Shown: positions 30,167-54,193 of the stretch, piece after piece
Layout of the letters: every line of letters begins with the position of its first letter
Position numbering within the stretch: position 1 is the stretch's first letter
From: a virus
Direction: 5' to 3' (one strand)
IMG/VR virus record: IMGVR_UViG_3300046171_000026
Location: 1-54,497 of that record
DNA: 54,497 bases
The notes under the pieces: model-generated
Databases searched by the model: none
The model's input: the letters and a program-made list of their open reading frames with translations, nothing else
Told to the model about the DNA's origin: nothing
Position numbers and translations under genes: made by a program

Positions 30167-30289
30167 ATGATAACTAAACTAAAACAAAAATTTTATCACG
30201 GAAGTAAGATAGAAAGCCTATGGATGAACCATAGCCACTGCGTCATTTCTGCAGTTGCAGGTTTTGTATTGGGTGCTATAATATTATAG
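30167..30289 (+). CDS. Very small membrane protein
   Basis: This 40-residue peptide starts at ATG 30167 with AAGGAG upstream. It has a basic N-terminus (MITKLKQKFYHGSKIES) and a C-terminal hydrophobic stretch (VISAVAGFVLGAIIL). It lies one base before the holin gene and is probably part of the lysis set. Confidence 0.6.
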   Translation: MITKLKQKFYHGSKIESLWMNHSHCVISAVAGFVLGAIIL

Positions 30290-30290
30290 T

Positions 30291-30683
30291 ATGGCATTCC
30301 CAATTTTATCAGCACTAAAATTAGCTGTAAATGCTGGCACTCATATCTATAAAAAGAAACAAGAAACTAAGATGCTTATGGCTGATGCTCAAGCCACGCA
30401 GGCTGCGAAGATGGCTCGTGGGGAAAGCGAATACCAAGGCAAGCTGCTTGAGGCTAGGCAATCGGACTGGAAAGACGAGTTCGTTTTGGTCGTTCTAACG
30501 CTGCCAATTTTGGTGATTGCGTATGGGGTCTTCTCGGATGATCCTGGTGCAGCTTCTAAAATAAAAGAGTTTTTCGAGCAGTTTCAACAGCTGCCGAGCT
30601 GGTTTACCAATTTATGGATACTTGTCGTGGCTAGTATTTATGGTATAAAAGGCACTCAAATATTTAAGGGTGGCAAAAAATAA
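30291..30683 (+). CDS. Holin, three transmembrane type
   Basis: A 130-residue protein. The N-terminus holds an amphipathic part (LSALKLAVNAGTHIYKKKQE), followed by a charged helix and two strong membrane segments (FVLVVLTLPILVIAYGVF and WFTNLWILVVASIYGIKGT) with a basic end FKGGKK. This matches phage holins of the 3-TM family that open the inner membrane before the endolysin acts. From about 30390 to 30610 the DNA is distinctly GC-richer than the flanks, a sign of recent transfer. Confidence 0.8.
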   Translation: MAFPILSALKLAVNAGTHIYKKKQETKMLMADAQATQAAKMARGESEYQGKLLEARQSDWKDEFVLVVLTLPILVIAYGVFSDDPGAASKIKEFFEQFQQLPSWFTNLWILVVASIYGIKGTQIFKGGKK

Positions 30684-30694
30684 TGGAGAGTAGT

Positions 30695-30763
30695 ATGAAT
30701 TACTATTTTACAGGAGTACTAATTATATTGTTTGTAGCATTTGCTATGTTAGTAGCACAGTGA
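30695..30763 (+). CDS. Tiny membrane peptide
   Basis: ATG 30695 is preceded by GGAGAG and encodes 22 residues, MNYYFTGVLIILFVAFAMLV and AQ, nearly all membrane segment. A start at 30683 would add four residues. Its TGA overlaps the GTG start of the next gene (GTGA), a strong sign of real translation. Confidence 0.55.
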   Translation: MNYYFTGVLIILFVAFAMLVAQ

Positions 30764-30972
30764 AGTTTATATTAGTACTTGCTTTATGCAGTCAGACATA
30801 TGGAAGCTGTATGCCTCCAATACAAAATAGTATTTACTATGATTCTTTTAGAGATTGTACTATGGCTGGCTATGGAGAGTCTCTTAATATATTACAAGCT
30901 TTTCCAATAAAAGAATTTGAAGATAAAAAATTATATACAAGCTTTGCTTGTACCATGCAAGGAACAACCTAA
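30760..30972 (+). CDS. Small secreted Cys-containing protein
   Basis: A 70-residue protein starting with GTG and overlapping the stop of the tiny gene before. The N-terminus is a short signal-like segment (MKFILVLALCSQTYG), and the remainder has three Cys (SCMPP, RDCTMAGY, FACTMQ) that could form disulfides outside the cytoplasm. It probably acts in the periplasm during lysis. Function unknown. Confidence 0.65.
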   Translation: MKFILVLALCSQTYGSCMPPIQNSIYYDSFRDCTMAGYGESLNILQAFPIKEFEDKKLYTSFACTMQGTT

Positions 30973-30974
30973 AT

Positions 30975-31646
30975 ATGAAATACCTCTCAATATTATTACT
31001 ATTATTATTTACCTCATCAGCAATTGCAGGATCAACACAGACTAATACATCTGGATCTAACACAGCTATCGAAGGTGGATATACATCTACTGCTACTACA
31101 ACGTATCAGTCTGGATCTAGTTCTAATAGTACAACGACTAACAGCTCTACTTCTAATGTTAAGTCAGCACCACCAAGTGCAGGTGCACCATCATACAATA
31201 GTATGACACAAGATGTTTGTGCTGTAGGTGTATCACTAGGTGTTCAAACATTTGGTATTGGTATTAGTGGTGGTAAGCATGCAATAGATAAAAATTGTGA
31301 AAGATTAAAGTTAGCTAGAATACTTAATGACTTTGGTATGAAAGTTGCAGCAGTTGCTATACTTTGTCAAGATGAAAGAGTATTTGAGTCTATGATTCAA
31401 GCAGGTACACCTTGTCCTATAGATGGTAAAATAGGTAAAGATGCTCAAGCTTTATGGTCTAAGTATGATCATGAAAGACCAGACTATACTACCTATGTTA
31501 AACGTATGGAAGATAGAAAAAAAGCTGATGAAGAAATGCAAGCAAAAATTACAGCAGAACTAGATGCTATGGATAAAGCCAAAGCTATAGAAGATGCAAA
31601 ATTAAACAATGCAAAGAAAATGAAAGAATGGAAACATCCTAGATGA
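30975..31646 (+). CDS. Exported protein with Ser/Thr-rich region, unknown
   Basis: I chose ATG 30975 (MKYLSILLLLLFTSSAIAG) because it starts a clean signal peptide with cleavage near residue 19 and AAGGAA lies upstream. A longer frame would need a TTG at 30948. After the signal comes a low-complexity Ser/Thr/Gly/Asn stretch, then a domain with three Cys (QDVCAVGVSLGVQTFGIGIS; DKNCERLK; LCQDERVF; GTPCP) and a charged helical tail. Periplasmic or outer-membrane role inferred. Length ~223 residues. Confidence 0.72.
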   Translation: MKYLSILLLLLFTSSAIAGSTQTNTSGSNTAIEGGYTSTATTTYQSGSSSNSTTTNSSTSNVKSAPPSAGAPSYNSMTQDVCAVGVSLGVQTFGIGISGGKHAIDKNCERLKLARILNDFGMKVAAVAILCQDERVFESMIQAGTPCPIDGKIGKDAQALWSKYDHERPDYTTYVKRMEDRKKADEEMQAKITAELDAMDKAKAIEDAKLNNAKKMKEWKHPR

Positions 31647-31780
31647 TAGATAGATTAATATATAAATTTTGTGGTTTTTTAGATAACTCAATAGCATTTG
31701 TAGAAACTGGTATTATTAAAATGGTAGAATGGTGCTGGCATACAAGAGTTAAGTTATTAAATAAAAAAAGAAAAAGATGA
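31643..31780 (+). CDS. Small protein with amphipathic helix
   Basis: A 45-residue peptide from ATG 31643 to TGA 31780 with four-base ATGA overlaps at both ends, which supports real translation. It reads MIDRLIYKFCGFLDNSIAF then VETGIIKMVEWCWHTRVK and a basic tail LLNKKRKR. It may associate with the membrane. Function unknown. Confidence 0.6.
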   Translation: MIDRLIYKFCGFLDNSIAFVETGIIKMVEWCWHTRVKLLNKKRKR

Positions 31781-32157
31781 ACAATAAACCATTAAACATA
31801 TCTGAATCGGCTGCTGTACAAATGCCGATGAAGACAGTTGCTAGTCTTATAGTGCTAGTAGCAATGGGTGTGTTTGCATATACAGAGCTGACTTCAAGGT
31901 TAGTATCGTTAGAGACATCAAGAGAATTATTTGAAAATGATTTACTTAAAAAATCTGAGCAAGTACCTGTAGACCAGGAGCAACATTTTTTATTAGAAGA
32001 TTTGTATAAGTCTGTAGAAAAAATGGAAGAGACTCAAGAGATGAATATGACTAATAAAGTTAATATAGAATTTTTAAGAGATCAATTAGACCAAGCATTA
32101 AGAGATATAGAAGACTTAAAAGATAAGGTAAGAGCAAACGGTAACGGAGCACATTAA
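31777..32157 (+). CDS. Single-pass membrane protein with coiled-coil (spanin-like candidate)
   Basis: A 126-residue protein with one membrane segment near 20-37 (TVASLIVLVAMGVFAYTEL) and a long periplasm-facing helix with heptads (LVSLETSRELFENDLLKK; FLRDQLDQALRDIEDLKDKV). That architecture is shared by i-spanins of lysis cassettes, and the gene sits between holin and endolysin, but no outer-membrane partner with a lipobox is obvious. Call is tentative. Confidence 0.65.
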   Translation: MNNKPLNISESAAVQMPMKTVASLIVLVAMGVFAYTELTSRLVSLETSRELFENDLLKKSEQVPVDQEQHFLLEDLYKSVEKMEETQEMNMTNKVNIEFLRDQLDQALRDIEDLKDKVRANGNGAH

Positions 32158-32372
32158 TGACAGAGTTGATCATAGCCCTACTTATGATTGTCAACGGAGA
32201 GATTAAGGAACATAGAATACAGGAATCTATGTCTGACTGTTTAAAAGGCAAACGTATTGCAACAAGAACTAATAAAAATAATAACATAAATTACACTTGC
32301 ATTAAGTCGATGGCTGAACTTGAGTCTAACATAGACGGAAGTAAATCAATTAAAAAATTAATATTAGAATGA
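32157..32372 (+). CDS. Small exported protein, unknown
   Basis: This 71-residue protein has a hydrophobic N-terminus (MTELIIALLMIVNGEIKEHR) and two Cys (SDCLKGKRIA, YTCIKSMAEL). It ends SKSIKKLILE. It is coupled to both neighbours by TAATG and ATGA overlaps. The look is of a short signal-bearing lysis-region protein. Function not known. Confidence 0.68.
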   Translation: MTELIIALLMIVNGEIKEHRIQESMSDCLKGKRIATRTNKNNNINYTCIKSMAELESNIDGSKSIKKLILE

Positions 32373-33709
32373 AATGGTTAGTTACGTTTTTAGTATTAAC
32401 CCTAGTTATTTTTGGTGCTAAAGCAGAAGAGATAACAACAGGTAATCTAATTACTAATGGTAACTTTGAAACAGGCAACTCTAATGGTTGGACTACATCT
32501 GGTGATGTACAAGTATTAAATGATTGCTGTGAGTTAAATGGTGTATCAAGTAATTATGATTTAGAATTTGGTGACAGTGGTTCTATTGAACAAGACTTTA
32601 ATTTATCCACAAATACTATAACACAAAATATGCTAGATAATGGTATTACATTAGACTCTAGTATGGATGCACAAAATGGTGAGTGTGGTGTTGTGGGATG
32701 TTGGGGTGGAAGTGGAGATGCTGATACCTTTACAAATGTATTAACTATAAAAGACTCTGATGGTAATACTCTTGCATCAAATACTACAATAAGAACTGAT
32801 GTTACAGGTATTAATGGTGCAATATTTACAGACAGATTAATATATAATGGCACAGGATCTAACGTAGGTAATATAAATATATCTGGATCTGATGCTAATG
32901 CCCCTGCTAATCTAGGTGGTCCTAATATAGATAACATTTCTGTTACTATGACCTATGATACCTCTGTATTAGATAATGATATAGTAGATGAGATTGGTGA
33001 AGTATTTGAAGATTTAGAAGACGTATTTGAATATATAGAGTTTACTCAAATAGAAGAATTATTTGAAGAATTTATACCATCTTTTGAGGAACCGCCAATG
33101 GAAGAAGAATTATTTTTTGAGCCTATGGAAATGCAAGAAGAGTTTGCCATGGAAGAAGAGTCTATAATTGAAGAAGAAATGATTGAAGAAGAGATAATAG
33201 AAGAAGAATATATAAAAGAAGAGTTTACAGAAGAAGAAGAGATAATAGAAGAAAAACCTACACAAATGGCAGAAGAACCTAATGAAAAAGAAGAAGAATC
33301 CAATAGCAAAACTACTGAGACTGCCAAAGTTAAGAATGAAAATAATACAAAACAAAAAAATATACAATCGAAAGAAACAACCAAAACTAACCTAGTAAAA
33401 ATTATGGATAAAGTAGATAAAGACATTAAAGATATATCAAAGAATTTACAAATTAAAAATATTATTAAGCTAGATGCTATGACAAGTGACCAGGCATCTC
33501 TTGATTCTTACGACATACCCTTCTACAAAAGTGAAAATATCTATATGGATCAAATACAGATACAAGATATGAGACAGTTATATACTGAAGTTAGTTTAAA
33601 CAATTACATATCTAATGATCCTGTAGTAATTATGGAAAATAAACTAAGAGATATAGAAACTAAAAAACAATTATTAATAATTGAACTAGAGGCATTAAAA
33701 AATGGATAA
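32369..33709 (+). CDS. Secreted protein with lectin-like domain and glutamate-rich region
   Basis: A 446-residue protein with a signal peptide (MKWLVTFLVLTLVIFGAKA, cleaved near 19). A beta-rich domain of ~165 residues starts NLITNGNFETGNSNGWTTSG, a pattern of carbohydrate-binding jelly-roll modules also seen in the tail adaptor insert at 11664, and has two Cys pairs (NDCCEL, GECGVVGCW). Residues about 205-310 are extremely Glu-rich with short EEE-I-EE units. The C-terminal ~120 residues are basic then helical. Secreted or surface role inferred. Confidence 0.72.
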   Translation: MKWLVTFLVLTLVIFGAKAEEITTGNLITNGNFETGNSNGWTTSGDVQVLNDCCELNGVSSNYDLEFGDSGSIEQDFNLSTNTITQNMLDNGITLDSSMDAQNGECGVVGCWGGSGDADTFTNVLTIKDSDGNTLASNTTIRTDVTGINGAIFTDRLIYNGTGSNVGNINISGSDANAPANLGGPNIDNISVTMTYDTSVLDNDIVDEIGEVFEDLEDVFEYIEFTQIEELFEEFIPSFEEPPMEEELFFEPMEMQEEFAMEEESIIEEEMIEEEIIEEEYIKEEFTEEEEIIEEKPTQMAEEPNEKEEESNSKTTETAKVKNENNTKQKNIQSKETTKTNLVKIMDKVDKDIKDISKNLQIKNIIKLDAMTSDQASLDSYDIPFYKSENIYMDQIQIQDMRQLYTEVSLNNYISNDPVVIMENKLRDIETKKQLLIIELEALKNG

Positions 33710-34028
33710 AATAAAAAATCAATTAGCAGGTGTAGCTGCATTACTTGGAGTCATTGCCGCAATAGGTGGTGGCTTTGTAAAGTATGGAGAGATTGTAACT
33801 AAATTAGATGCATTAGAAGGTGCATCAGGTGGTAAAGATTGGTCTGCAGAAATAGCTGTATTAGAAGAAAAAGTAGGTGCATTAGAAAATGCAGATACTT
33901 CACATACTCATGATACATCTCACTCTCATGACAACACTGCAGTTAAGATTCTTGAAAAAGAAATACAATTACTTAAAGTACAAATAGAAGAAATTAAAGT
34001 ATCAACATCTAACCCATTAGCAAACTAA
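33702..34028 (+). CDS. Membrane-anchored coiled-coil protein with His-rich segment
   Basis: The 108-residue protein has an N-terminal membrane segment (LAGVAALLGVIAAIGGGFV), a coiled-coil (IAVLEEKVGALENADTSHT), a striking His/Asp/Thr segment (HTHDTSHSHD) that could bind metal, and a second coiled-coil (ILEKEIQLLKVQIEEIKV). It lies immediately upstream of the zinc endolysin. A lysis helper role is inferred from place. Confidence 0.68.
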   Translation: MDKIKNQLAGVAALLGVIAAIGGGFVKYGEIVTKLDALEGASGGKDWSAEIAVLEEKVGALENADTSHTHDTSHSHDNTAVKILEKEIQLLKVQIEEIKVSTSNPLAN

Positions 34029-34477
34029 TGAAATTAAGTGGACATTTTAGTTTAGCAGAACTAACTAAATCACAAACTGCTATAAGAAAAGGTATAGATA
34101 ATCAACCTACTCTTGATCATATAGAAAATTTAACAGAACTATGTACTCACGTACTAGAACCAACACGTAGAAATTTTGGTAAACCTATGGTAATATCTTC
34201 TGGATATAGATCAGAAGAATTATGTGAGGCTATTGGCTCGTCTAAAAACAGCCAACATGCTAAAGGTGAGGCAGCAGATTTTGAAATGTTTGGTGTAGAT
34301 AATAAAGAATTAGCAAAGTACATTAAAAATAACCTAGTGTTTGATCAGCTTATACTAGAATTTTATAATCCAGATGACCCTTCAAGTGGATGGGTGCATT
34401 GCTCATATAGTAAAGAAGAAAACAGAAAACAATCATTATTATATAACGGAAAGGATTATACAGAATGGCTTACTTAA
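34028..34477 (+). CDS. Endolysin, M15-family zinc peptidase
   Basis: A 149-residue enzyme expected to cut peptide bridges of peptidoglycan to release progeny. Metal ligands are visible as H77 (SQHAKGEAADF), D84 and H124 (GWVHCSY), with E111 (LILEFY) as probable catalytic base; GYRS at 59-62 is also typical. No signal peptide is present, so it needs the holin encoded at 30291. It starts with a TAATG overlap. Confidence 0.92.
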   Translation: MKLSGHFSLAELTKSQTAIRKGIDNQPTLDHIENLTELCTHVLEPTRRNFGKPMVISSGYRSEELCEAIGSSKNSQHAKGEAADFEMFGVDNKELAKYIKNNLVFDQLILEFYNPDDPSSGWVHCSYSKEENRKQSLLYNGKDYTEWLT

Positions 34478-36504: not shown

Positions 36505-36738
36505 TTAAATTTTTTGTATCATTTGTTTAATATCATCTTCTAGTTTTTTACCAGCAGAGTTTGCATGATTAATAATTGCTGCACATAAATTAGCTTGGTA
36601 CTTGTAGTCTTTTAAAGCTTCTCTTATCTTACCCACTGGCTTTCCTCCATAGTCAATTACAATAGCATTGTCTTTGTTTAGTCCAATCTTTAATTCAAAC
36701 AATAAACCTGTATGTTTACTTACACTATTTTTTTGCAT
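36505..36738 (-). CDS. Small protein, last gene of the leftward arm
   Basis: I chose the ATG at 36738 (MQKNSVSKHTGLLFELKIGL) because GGAGG lies 6 bp upstream; a longer frame exists. The 77-residue product has a mixed core with VIDYGGKPVGKIREALKDYK and a helical C-terminus ending KQMIQKI. It overlaps the gene before by 14 bp. No known family. Confidence 0.65.
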   Translation of the reverse strand: MQKNSVSKHTGLLFELKIGLNKDNAIVIDYGGKPVGKIREALKDYKYQANLCAAIINHANSAGKKLEDDIKQMIQKI

Positions 36739-52528: not shown

Positions 52529-52686
52529 TTTTTTATCTTCCTCACTTTCATAAATGACTTATGTAATTCCTGTTGTTTAAATTTTTCTACCTCTATTCCT
52601 CTCAATTTTATTATTGAAACTATTAGAATAATAAAACCAATTACAATTAGAGATAAGCCCCCATATAAAAGAGTATTAACTGTCAT
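52525..52686 (-). CDS. Small early membrane protein
   Basis: A 53-residue protein from ATG 52686 (MTVNTLLYGGLSLIVIGFII then LIVSIIKLRGIEVEKFKQQE), with a membrane helix at about 5-27 and a basic cytoplasmic tail ending MKVRKIKK. It overlaps both neighbours. Function unknown. Confidence 0.62.
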   Translation of the reverse strand: MTVNTLLYGGLSLIVIGFIILIVSIIKLRGIEVEKFKQQELHKSFMKVRKIKK

Positions 52687-52873
52687 ATATATTCTTATGA
52701 ATTGATTTTATCTTATCAGTTGCAATAGGTGTAATGCTCTCAAGTTGTTTATCAGTTAAACTTTTAACAGTATTACTTTCTATTGTATCAATAACCAATT
52801 TTGAACTAGCGATCTTATTACTAATTTCTAATTGTTTATTAATTTTTTCTAATACCTTAATTAATTGTTTCAT
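52676..52873 (-). CDS. Small helical protein, first gene of the leftward arm
   Basis: A 65-residue protein (MKQLIKVLEKINKQLEISNK; SLTDKQLESITPIATDKIKS) with AGAGGTAA upstream. It is helical and charged. As the first gene after the divergent control region it is expected to be expressed earliest on this strand. Function unknown. Confidence 0.65.
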   Translation of the reverse strand: MKQLIKVLEKINKQLEISNKIASSKLVIDTIESNTVKSLTDKQLESITPIATDKIKSIHKNIYDS

Positions 52874-52952
52874 TTATTTACCTCTATTTATTAAGTTTAT
52901 TTATTATGTATAATAATTATATATAAAAGTTATATCTAATTAATATAACTAT

Positions 52953-52981
52953 ATATTATATTTAATTAATATATATGTCAA
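52953..52981 (-). promoter_or_regulatory. Leftward sigma70-type promoter
   Basis: On the minus strand TTGACA (52976-52981) is followed by TATAAT (52955-52960, 15-bp spacer) overlapping TAATAT (52953-52958, 17-bp spacer). It would start the leftward early arm at 52873. The AT-rich context makes the exact -10 uncertain. Confidence 0.65.
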
Positions 52982-52982
52982 A

Positions 52983-53034
52983 TAGATATAAATAATATAT
53001 ATAATAGATAGATATAAATAATATATATAATAAA
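52983..53034. repeat. AT-only direct repeat, period 26 bp
   Basis: A 24-bp unit, starting TAGATATAAATAATATATAT, is present at 52983 and again at 53009, with a partial third copy (AATAGATATATAT) from 53034. The whole stretch is A and T apart from single G. Such easily melted repeats suit a replication origin, but low complexity alone could also explain them. Confidence 0.6.
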
Positions 53035-53156
53035 TAGATATATATATTATATAAATATACTGCCTTATTCTTGCCATATTATAGACAAAGTTATGCCTTA
53101 ATATTATAGTATGGTAAATATATGACAAAGTGTTGCATAAATATCACACCTTTAGA

Positions 53157-53172
53157 TGTTTCACGTGAAACA
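53157..53172. promoter_or_regulatory. parS: Exact chromosomal-type parS site (ParB-binding palindrome)
   Basis: TGTTTCACGTGAAACA is a perfect 16-bp palindrome and equals the consensus centromere site bound by bacterial chromosomal ParB proteins (GTTTCACGTGAAAC core). A chance match of this length in an AT-rich 54-kb sequence is very unlikely. No ParA or ParB gene is visible in the window, so the host ParB is the probable partner. Confidence 0.88.
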
Positions 53173-53178
53173 TTACAG

Positions 53179-53195
53179 ATTAGAATGATTCTAAT
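53179..53195. promoter_or_regulatory. 17-bp palindrome beside parS
   Basis: ATTAGAAT-G-ATTCTAAT is a perfect inverted repeat with one central base, 7 bp after the parS palindrome. It looks like an operator for a dimeric DNA-binding protein. Confidence 0.6.
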
Positions 53196-53265
53196 TAGCA
53201 ATCAATTACAGGTTGTATTAGGGGGGGGGTATTAAAAAAGCTAATAAAATAAGGGTTAATTTAAC

Positions 53266-53283
53266 AATTCAAAATTTTGAATT
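53266..53283. promoter_or_regulatory. 18-bp palindrome upstream of a promoter
   Basis: AATTCAAAATTTTGAATT is a perfect palindrome ending 8 bp before the -35 of the rightward promoter at 53291. The position suits a regulator of the 53388 gene, perhaps its own product. Confidence 0.55.
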
Positions 53284-53387: not shown

Positions 53388-54176
53388 ATGAAAAATGAAA
53401 CTAATGTTAAATTTGATAGACCAATAAAACTATCAGCTGAGCAGACAAAACAAGTTACTCAAGTTGATGATATTTTGACAGCTGAAAATTCTGTTGGAAA
53501 TCAAAAAATAGTTTTAGTTAATATGATTACTGAAACTATCAACTCTAAGAAAGTTAAAATGGAATATACTGAAATCAATAAAACTACAGGCGTTGAGAAA
53601 GTAATTTCATTTGATAGCTTAAACCAAATAACTAATAAAGATGTTAAGGGGTTAGCTGATACTTACAAAAAATGGTTGGGGGTTGATAAGTTAAAATCAT
53701 GGGCTTCAACTACTGACAATGGTAAAGAAAGAATGAGAATTTTAAAAGAGTCTTTATGGGTTGCTATTGTTACAGCTAAAACTGAAGTAATCACAAAAAA
53801 TAAAAAGGGTGAGCAATTTACAGGAAATAAAAATAGTGAAATTTTTGTTGATGGTGACTTTGCTAAAAACTACTCAGATAATGATAAGGGGTTAGATATT
53901 GTTAGCATGAAATTTTCACAGCTAAAAAGAGCAACCCAAAATTATATTGCTGATAAGAAAACACCAATTAATTCAACTGAGGTTTCAGCTAGAAATAATG
54001 GTTTTCAAACTCTAATGAAAAAATCAGTTTTAGCGATTGACGAAGCTAAAGAAAAAATTGTTTTGGGGGAAAATAACCCAAATGATTTAAACGCTGTTAA
54101 AAGTGTTTTCATTAAAGCCCAACAATACATTGAGGAACATAACAGGGTTCAAGCTAGTTTAAAAAAAGCTAGTTAA
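53388..54176 (+). CDS. Rightward early protein, unknown
   Basis: I chose ATG 53388 (MKNETNVKFDRPIKLSAEQT) because AAAAGGA lies 7 bp upstream; the ATG at 53325 has none. The 262-residue protein is basic and hydrophilic: a strand-rich part (QKIVLVNMITETINSKKVKM), a helix with YKKWLGVDKLKSWASTTDN, and a C-terminal helical part (FIKAQQYIEEHNRVQASLKK). It does not show ParB, repressor or replication-initiator motifs that I know. It stands alone between the parS/palindrome region and a strong terminator, so a regulator or origin-linked DNA-binding protein is a fair guess. Confidence 0.72.
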   Translation: MKNETNVKFDRPIKLSAEQTKQVTQVDDILTAENSVGNQKIVLVNMITETINSKKVKMEYTEINKTTGVEKVISFDSLNQITNKDVKGLADTYKKWLGVDKLKSWASTTDNGKERMRILKESLWVAIVTAKTEVITKNKKGEQFTGNKNSEIFVDGDFAKNYSDNDKGLDIVSMKFSQLKRATQNYIADKKTPINSTEVSARNNGFQTLMKKSVLAIDEAKEKIVLGENNPNDLNAVKSVFIKAQQYIEEHNRVQASLKKAS

Positions 54177-54193
54177 TAAAAGCTAACTAAATT

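Follow-up and report, generated by a model that had tools for sequence, protein, structure and literature searches.

The stretch of DNA analysed here in its entirety (54,497 nucleotides, hereafter the window) is a single IMG/VR virus record with a GC content of ~33%. Its DNA polymerase shares 77.7% identity with that of Pelagibacter phage HTVC033P and 41.8% with that of HMO-2011, its terminase is 76% identical to the HTVC033P counterpart, and polymerase, helicase, primase and terminase, together with the genome plan, are held in common with the HMO-2011-type phages, to which the window phage thus belongs. The GC content fits both HTVC033P (33.8%) and SAR11 (29%) (PMC9038755), and this agreement, along with the kinship to HTVC033P, suggests that the host is probably a SAR11-like bacterium. 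The window appears near-complete, given that a homologous contig (L128) spans from window position 54187 to window position 104, with ~200 nt between the two ends. Two peculiarities of gene content lie outside the locus discussed below: an ORF located between 363 and 36263 on the plus strand gives a weak Bactofilin match (PF04519, E=2.7e-4), which is unusual for a phage, and several proteins encoded at 30282-34474 are 35-87% identical to those of an HTVC023P-like contig (G031), that is, this segment looks like a cassette exchanged between phage families.

Leftward genes occupy 36.5-52.9 kb and rightward genes extend from 53.3 kb, past the window ends, to the terminase. The two divergent blocks are separated by a 450-nt intergenic gap that contains a parS-type palindrome. 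The junction comprises the following features:

52676..52873, minus strand: first leftward (early-side) ORF, 65 aa, no family
52880..53060, no strand: A+T-rich repetitive stretch at the minima of cumulative GC skew and AT skew
53084..53144, plus strand: 21-nt repeat (GACAAAGT...), two copies 40 nt apart, upstream of parS
53094..53200, no strand: cassette at the junction, ~107 nt, made up of the upstream block, parS and the second palindrome
53122..53235, plus strand: 37-codon ORF (MTKCCINITPLDVSRET...) that spans parS; each of the 6 cassette carriers has an open frame beginning in a similar way
53157..53172, no strand: parS-type palindrome TGTTTCACGTGAAACA (extended 53156-53173), identical to the SAR11 chromosomal parS
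53179..53195, no strand: second palindrome ATTAGAATGATTCTAAT, 17 bp, 7 nt past parS
53266..53283, no strand: third palindrome AATTCAAAATTTTGAATT, shared with L128 and L129
53325..54176, plus strand: first rightward ORF, 283 aa, with the ATG at 53388 the likelier start; unknown fold

The 16-mer at 53157-53172 agrees with the chromosomal parS consensus at 16 of 16 bases, as a preliminary description of this DNA had claimed, and lies at the centre of a perfect 18-bp palindrome, ATGTTTCACGTGAAACAT. One copy is present in the window, where ~1e-5 would be expected by chance (1.9e-5 from base frequencies and 8.8e-6 from a first-order Markov model); with up to 3 mismatches allowed, shuffles of the window yield 0.35 matches. 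The same description had proposed a search of likely hosts, and the 14-base parS core was indeed found in 164 of the 297 SAR11 genomes, exactly once in 163 of these 164, with no match to the reversed 14-mer used as a control in any of the 297. In the one SAR11 genome inspected (G045), parS lies inside rsmG, where it is read as NVSRETF, and is followed by parA and parB, the latter encoding a protein that matches Caulobacter ParB (6t1f) with E=1e-56. Because the 14-mer is mostly single in SAR11 and adjoins parA-parB in G045, the phage site would correspond to the usually single centromere site of the likely host, and the window palindrome is best read as a genuine host-type parS carried by a phage.

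The single-copy state of the host centromere lends some appeal to the idea of a decoy, whereby replicated phage copies would draw ParB off the only parS of the host and disturb its segregation, for which phage copies numbering only in the tens could suffice. We nevertheless consider this improbable: a decoy would be expected to consist of an array, whereas the window and most carriers of the composite element described below have one site, the gain for lytic killing of a slow-growing host would be small, and the site is missing from close relatives.

The absence of ParA, ParB and integrase noted in the preliminary description was corroborated by a Pfam search of the 90 window ORFs (E<=1e-3), in which none of these families was detected. 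Hence the window, with neither parA nor parB among these ORFs, does not encode a complete ParABS system, and with neither integrase nor partition genes detected by Pfam it has the hallmarks of neither a temperate phage nor a phage-plasmid. According to the HMO-2011 paper, subgroups IV-X, HTVC033P among them, have no lysogeny genes (PMC9038755), and for this reason long-term plasmid-like maintenance seems the weakest of the three roles suggested earlier for the site, namely, maintenance, placement near the host origin, and ParB titration, which the sequence alone cannot tell apart.

The earlier placement of parS in a divergent control region beside other palindromes (53179-53195 and 53266-53283) is correct. 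The minima of cumulative GC skew (52884) and AT skew (52909) are ~250-275 bp from parS, and the GC-skew maximum is at 36607. The A+T-rich stretch at the minima might be origin-like or divergent-promoter DNA; the minima are no proof of an origin, as they also mark a change in gene direction, and no DnaA boxes were found in the window junction region. At 53222-53230 there is a run of 9 G (8 in L128), a homopolymer of possibly variable length. The position of the first rightward gene is filled by members of at least two allele families, in each of which parS is present in some cases and absent in others. The AlphaFold model of its product (window 53388-54173; pLDDT 71) had no PDB match at E<=0.001 and no recognisable domain, and its one BFVD match is an uncharacterised protein of an uncultured virus. 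We rejected the possibility that parS is kept for an encoded peptide because the reading frame over parS varies among carriers; thus, what is conserved is the DNA and not the peptide.

Among relatives, the site is present in some and absent from others. At the homologous junction, parS is present with at most one mismatch in L128, L142, L144, L444 and L478, with the central base changed in the last of these (TGTTTCATGTGAAACA), and in L460 it falls within the opening codons of the junction gene. It is absent from the junction of L129, L131, L132, L411, L416 and others, including the cultured HTVC033P, and was not found at up to 2 mismatches in HTVC033P, HMO-2011, CRP-345 and CRP-1. The terminases of L411 and L416 are 99% identical to that of the window phage, yet both lack parS, and when the terminases of 24 phages are placed on a tree, the six parS carriers are scattered, with at least 5 forced changes. 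Thus, parS is dispensable, and the conservation at the same place in close relatives, by which the preliminary description had proposed to judge its own reading, fails, which by that test would count against the reading. Instead, parS behaves as part of a cassette. Between L444 and the window, the 107 nt around parS are 88% identical and the flanks do not align, and the upstream cassette block, found in 5 viral contigs besides the window, is accompanied by parS in 6 of 6 cases (15-16 of 16 bases); no match to the cassette DNA was found among named phages. The site is therefore better described as belonging to an apparently exchangeable control cassette that keeps parS than as a fixed feature of a clade.

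The second palindrome follows a different distribution, being kept in the parS-less HTVC033P, L131 and L132 as well as in other composite-bearing phages. Searched for as TTAGAATNATTCTAA, it occurs in 1 of 10 SAR11 genomes, approximately the chance level, so that it seems to be a site specific to the phages; for the same reason, its resemblance to the Irr box, an alphaproteobacterial iron control element, is probably a resemblance only. The sequence TTTAGAATNATTCTAAA is found in at least 120 marine viral contigs (L292-L410), often with longer flanking symmetry and mostly without a nearby parS. A fixed helical spacing between parS and the second palindrome was likewise discarded, the centres being ~17.5, 18.5, 20.5, 22.5, 28.5, 29.5, 37.5 and 42.5 bp apart with no phasing.

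The two palindromes recur together far beyond the window. The composite of parS, 4-30 nt and AGAATNATTCT was found in 31 viral contigs (36 with a relaxed pattern), against at most an estimated 0.3 expected by chance, and its carriers show several spacings and GC contents of 0.31-0.57. Those beyond the HMO-2011 type are mostly HTVC023P-like (GC 0.33-0.57), L149 being placed in neither group, so that the proposed search of related phages recovered parS both in HMO-2011-type kin and in unrelated marine phages. The composite lies mostly in a divergent intergenic gap and, in some cases (groups A, B and L494), between co-directional genes. Taken by itself, parS is present in at least 120 viral contigs, compared with 1 for a palindrome of matched composition that served as control, whose count may be lowered by the XhoI site that it includes; given 2 composites in the first 120 parS-bearing stretches, we estimate, very roughly, 1,900 parS-bearing viral contigs in the collection. 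ParB_N was detected in none of the 31 composite records, a weak absence as many of these are fragments. Of 28 longer viral contigs with parS, 4 gave a ParB_N match. Exact parS also occurs in L080, L113, L043, L017, L044 and L087, with several sites in some, and the L080 record (49 kb; GC 0.27 in the stretch examined) encodes ParB_N proteins, so that viral carriers of parS are a mix of self-sufficient and ParB-less ones. In the cultured pelagiphage HTVC027P, whose host is HTCC1062, a near-parS that matches at 15 of 16 bases, CGTTTCACGTGAAACA (MN698241.1 16412-16427; L489:4413-4428), sits inside a nuclease-like ORF that lacks annotation; it is read there as FHVKH and is possibly a coding coincidence.

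This recurrence bears on two further explanations. Under the first, the palindrome would be a chance occurrence or a neutral relic of host rsmG, as its scatter over the terminase tree might suggest; we regard this as very improbable, and chance as nearly excluded, considering the expectation for the window genome, the 31 contigs with the composite, the retention of at least 15 of 16 parS bases in all 6 carriers of the upstream block, and flanks that do not continue the host rsmG sequence outside the palindrome. Under the second, the palindrome would be the operator of a phage or host regulator that equals parS by coincidence and is not bound by ParB. The site does have other palindromes around it and is part of a control region, and TTAGAATNATTCTAA indicates that phage-specific operators exist at this junction. 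That an operator would coincide with the host centromere at all 16 bases, recur in two phage families and at non-homologous positions (the coding sequence in L460 and the gene in HTVC027P), and exceed the control palindrome more than 100-fold in viral contigs is, in our view, hardly to be expected.

The strongest competing explanation assigns parS a role in controlling the divergent promoters. ParB bound between the two operons would dampen or shape their promoters, and dilution by accumulating phage copies would release them, making the site a copy-number timer. The divergent intergenic position beside the second palindrome and repeats in the window, in HMO-2011-type carriers and in most HTVC023P-like ones, the swapping of the cassette in the manner of a regulatory region, and the frequent presence of other palindromes at the junction of parS-less relatives are all compatible with such a role. 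However, promoter-like matches are not in excess over shuffles, parS also lies between co-directional genes or, in L460, within coding sequence, and chromosomal ParB usually affects transcription little. On balance, promoter control is possible but unlikely.

We favour host ParB loading. Chromosomal ParB recognises parS, closes there into a CTP-dependent clamp, slides over kilobases and links the DNA to ParA and SMC. We infer that, after the phage enters, host ParB would be loaded at the phage parS as such a clamp, which would then slide over the DNA that surrounds the origin-like divergent junction of the phage and couple the phage genome to host ParA and SMC, so that the genome would be placed, organised or held together during replication. 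The benefit to the phage, presumably placement or organisation near the replication region, is the least certain step. Taken as a whole, the proposal that a SAR11-infecting phage without ParAB carries a host-type parS at which host ParB loads, aiding genome placement, organisation or cohesion, stands in our estimate at about even chances; the lack of parS in close relatives, its single copy in the window and the altered central base in L478 speak against it. More tentatively, and with somewhat less than even confidence, we extend it to two or more families of lytic marine phages, which would carry the host centromere as a swappable cassette and have their replicating genomes handled by host ParB, with ParA and SMC, and no partition protein of their own. 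What the analysis establishes is the 16/16 match, the identity with SAR11 parS, the lack of detectable phage ParAB, the recurrence of the cassette and the over-representation among viral contigs. Of the earlier interpretation, then, the host-type parS, the missing ParAB and integrase, the control-region position, the host match and the recurrence all stand, and the conservation in the closest kin does not.

If true, this reading would make the chromosome-segregation machinery of the host a target or a tool of infection in cells that rank among the most abundant in the ocean, where hosts with a single parS meet a phage that has no detectable lysogeny genes and bears the host centromere site alone. 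Near-identical phages with and without parS provide natural comparison pairs.

Our literature search, in which coverage was limited and subscription journals lay mostly outside, found no reports of host parS on phages without ParB. Among the closest phages, the HMO-2011-type podovirus HTVC033P shares with the window the genome plan, the junction and the second palindrome, as well as the polymerase similarity given above; unlike HTVC033P, HMO-2011, CRP-345 and CRP-1, the window has parS. HTVC023P-like pelagiphages (HTVC027P, HTVC023P and 023Pt_psg01) are comparable in that their uncultured kin carry parS with AGAATNATTCT, mostly in the divergent region, but they represent another phage family with another terminase, and the HTVC027P site lies within coding sequence without the second palindrome. 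With chromosomal parS of the SAR11 gidA-rsmG-parA-parB locus and of the Caulobacter and Bacillus type, the window site shares the 16-base palindrome, in a single copy as in SAR11, but it resides on a phage without parA and parB, at a divergent intergenic junction and outside rsmG. RedRock and other extrachromosomal mycobacteriophages bring ParA and ParB genes of their own, and as parS they have 8-bp direct repeats in an array (PMC7157519). The window resembles these phages in having a centromere-like site near the phage origin or control region and differs from them in that the site is of the host type and the partition proteins are missing. Phages with their own ParABS are already known (PMC7157519).
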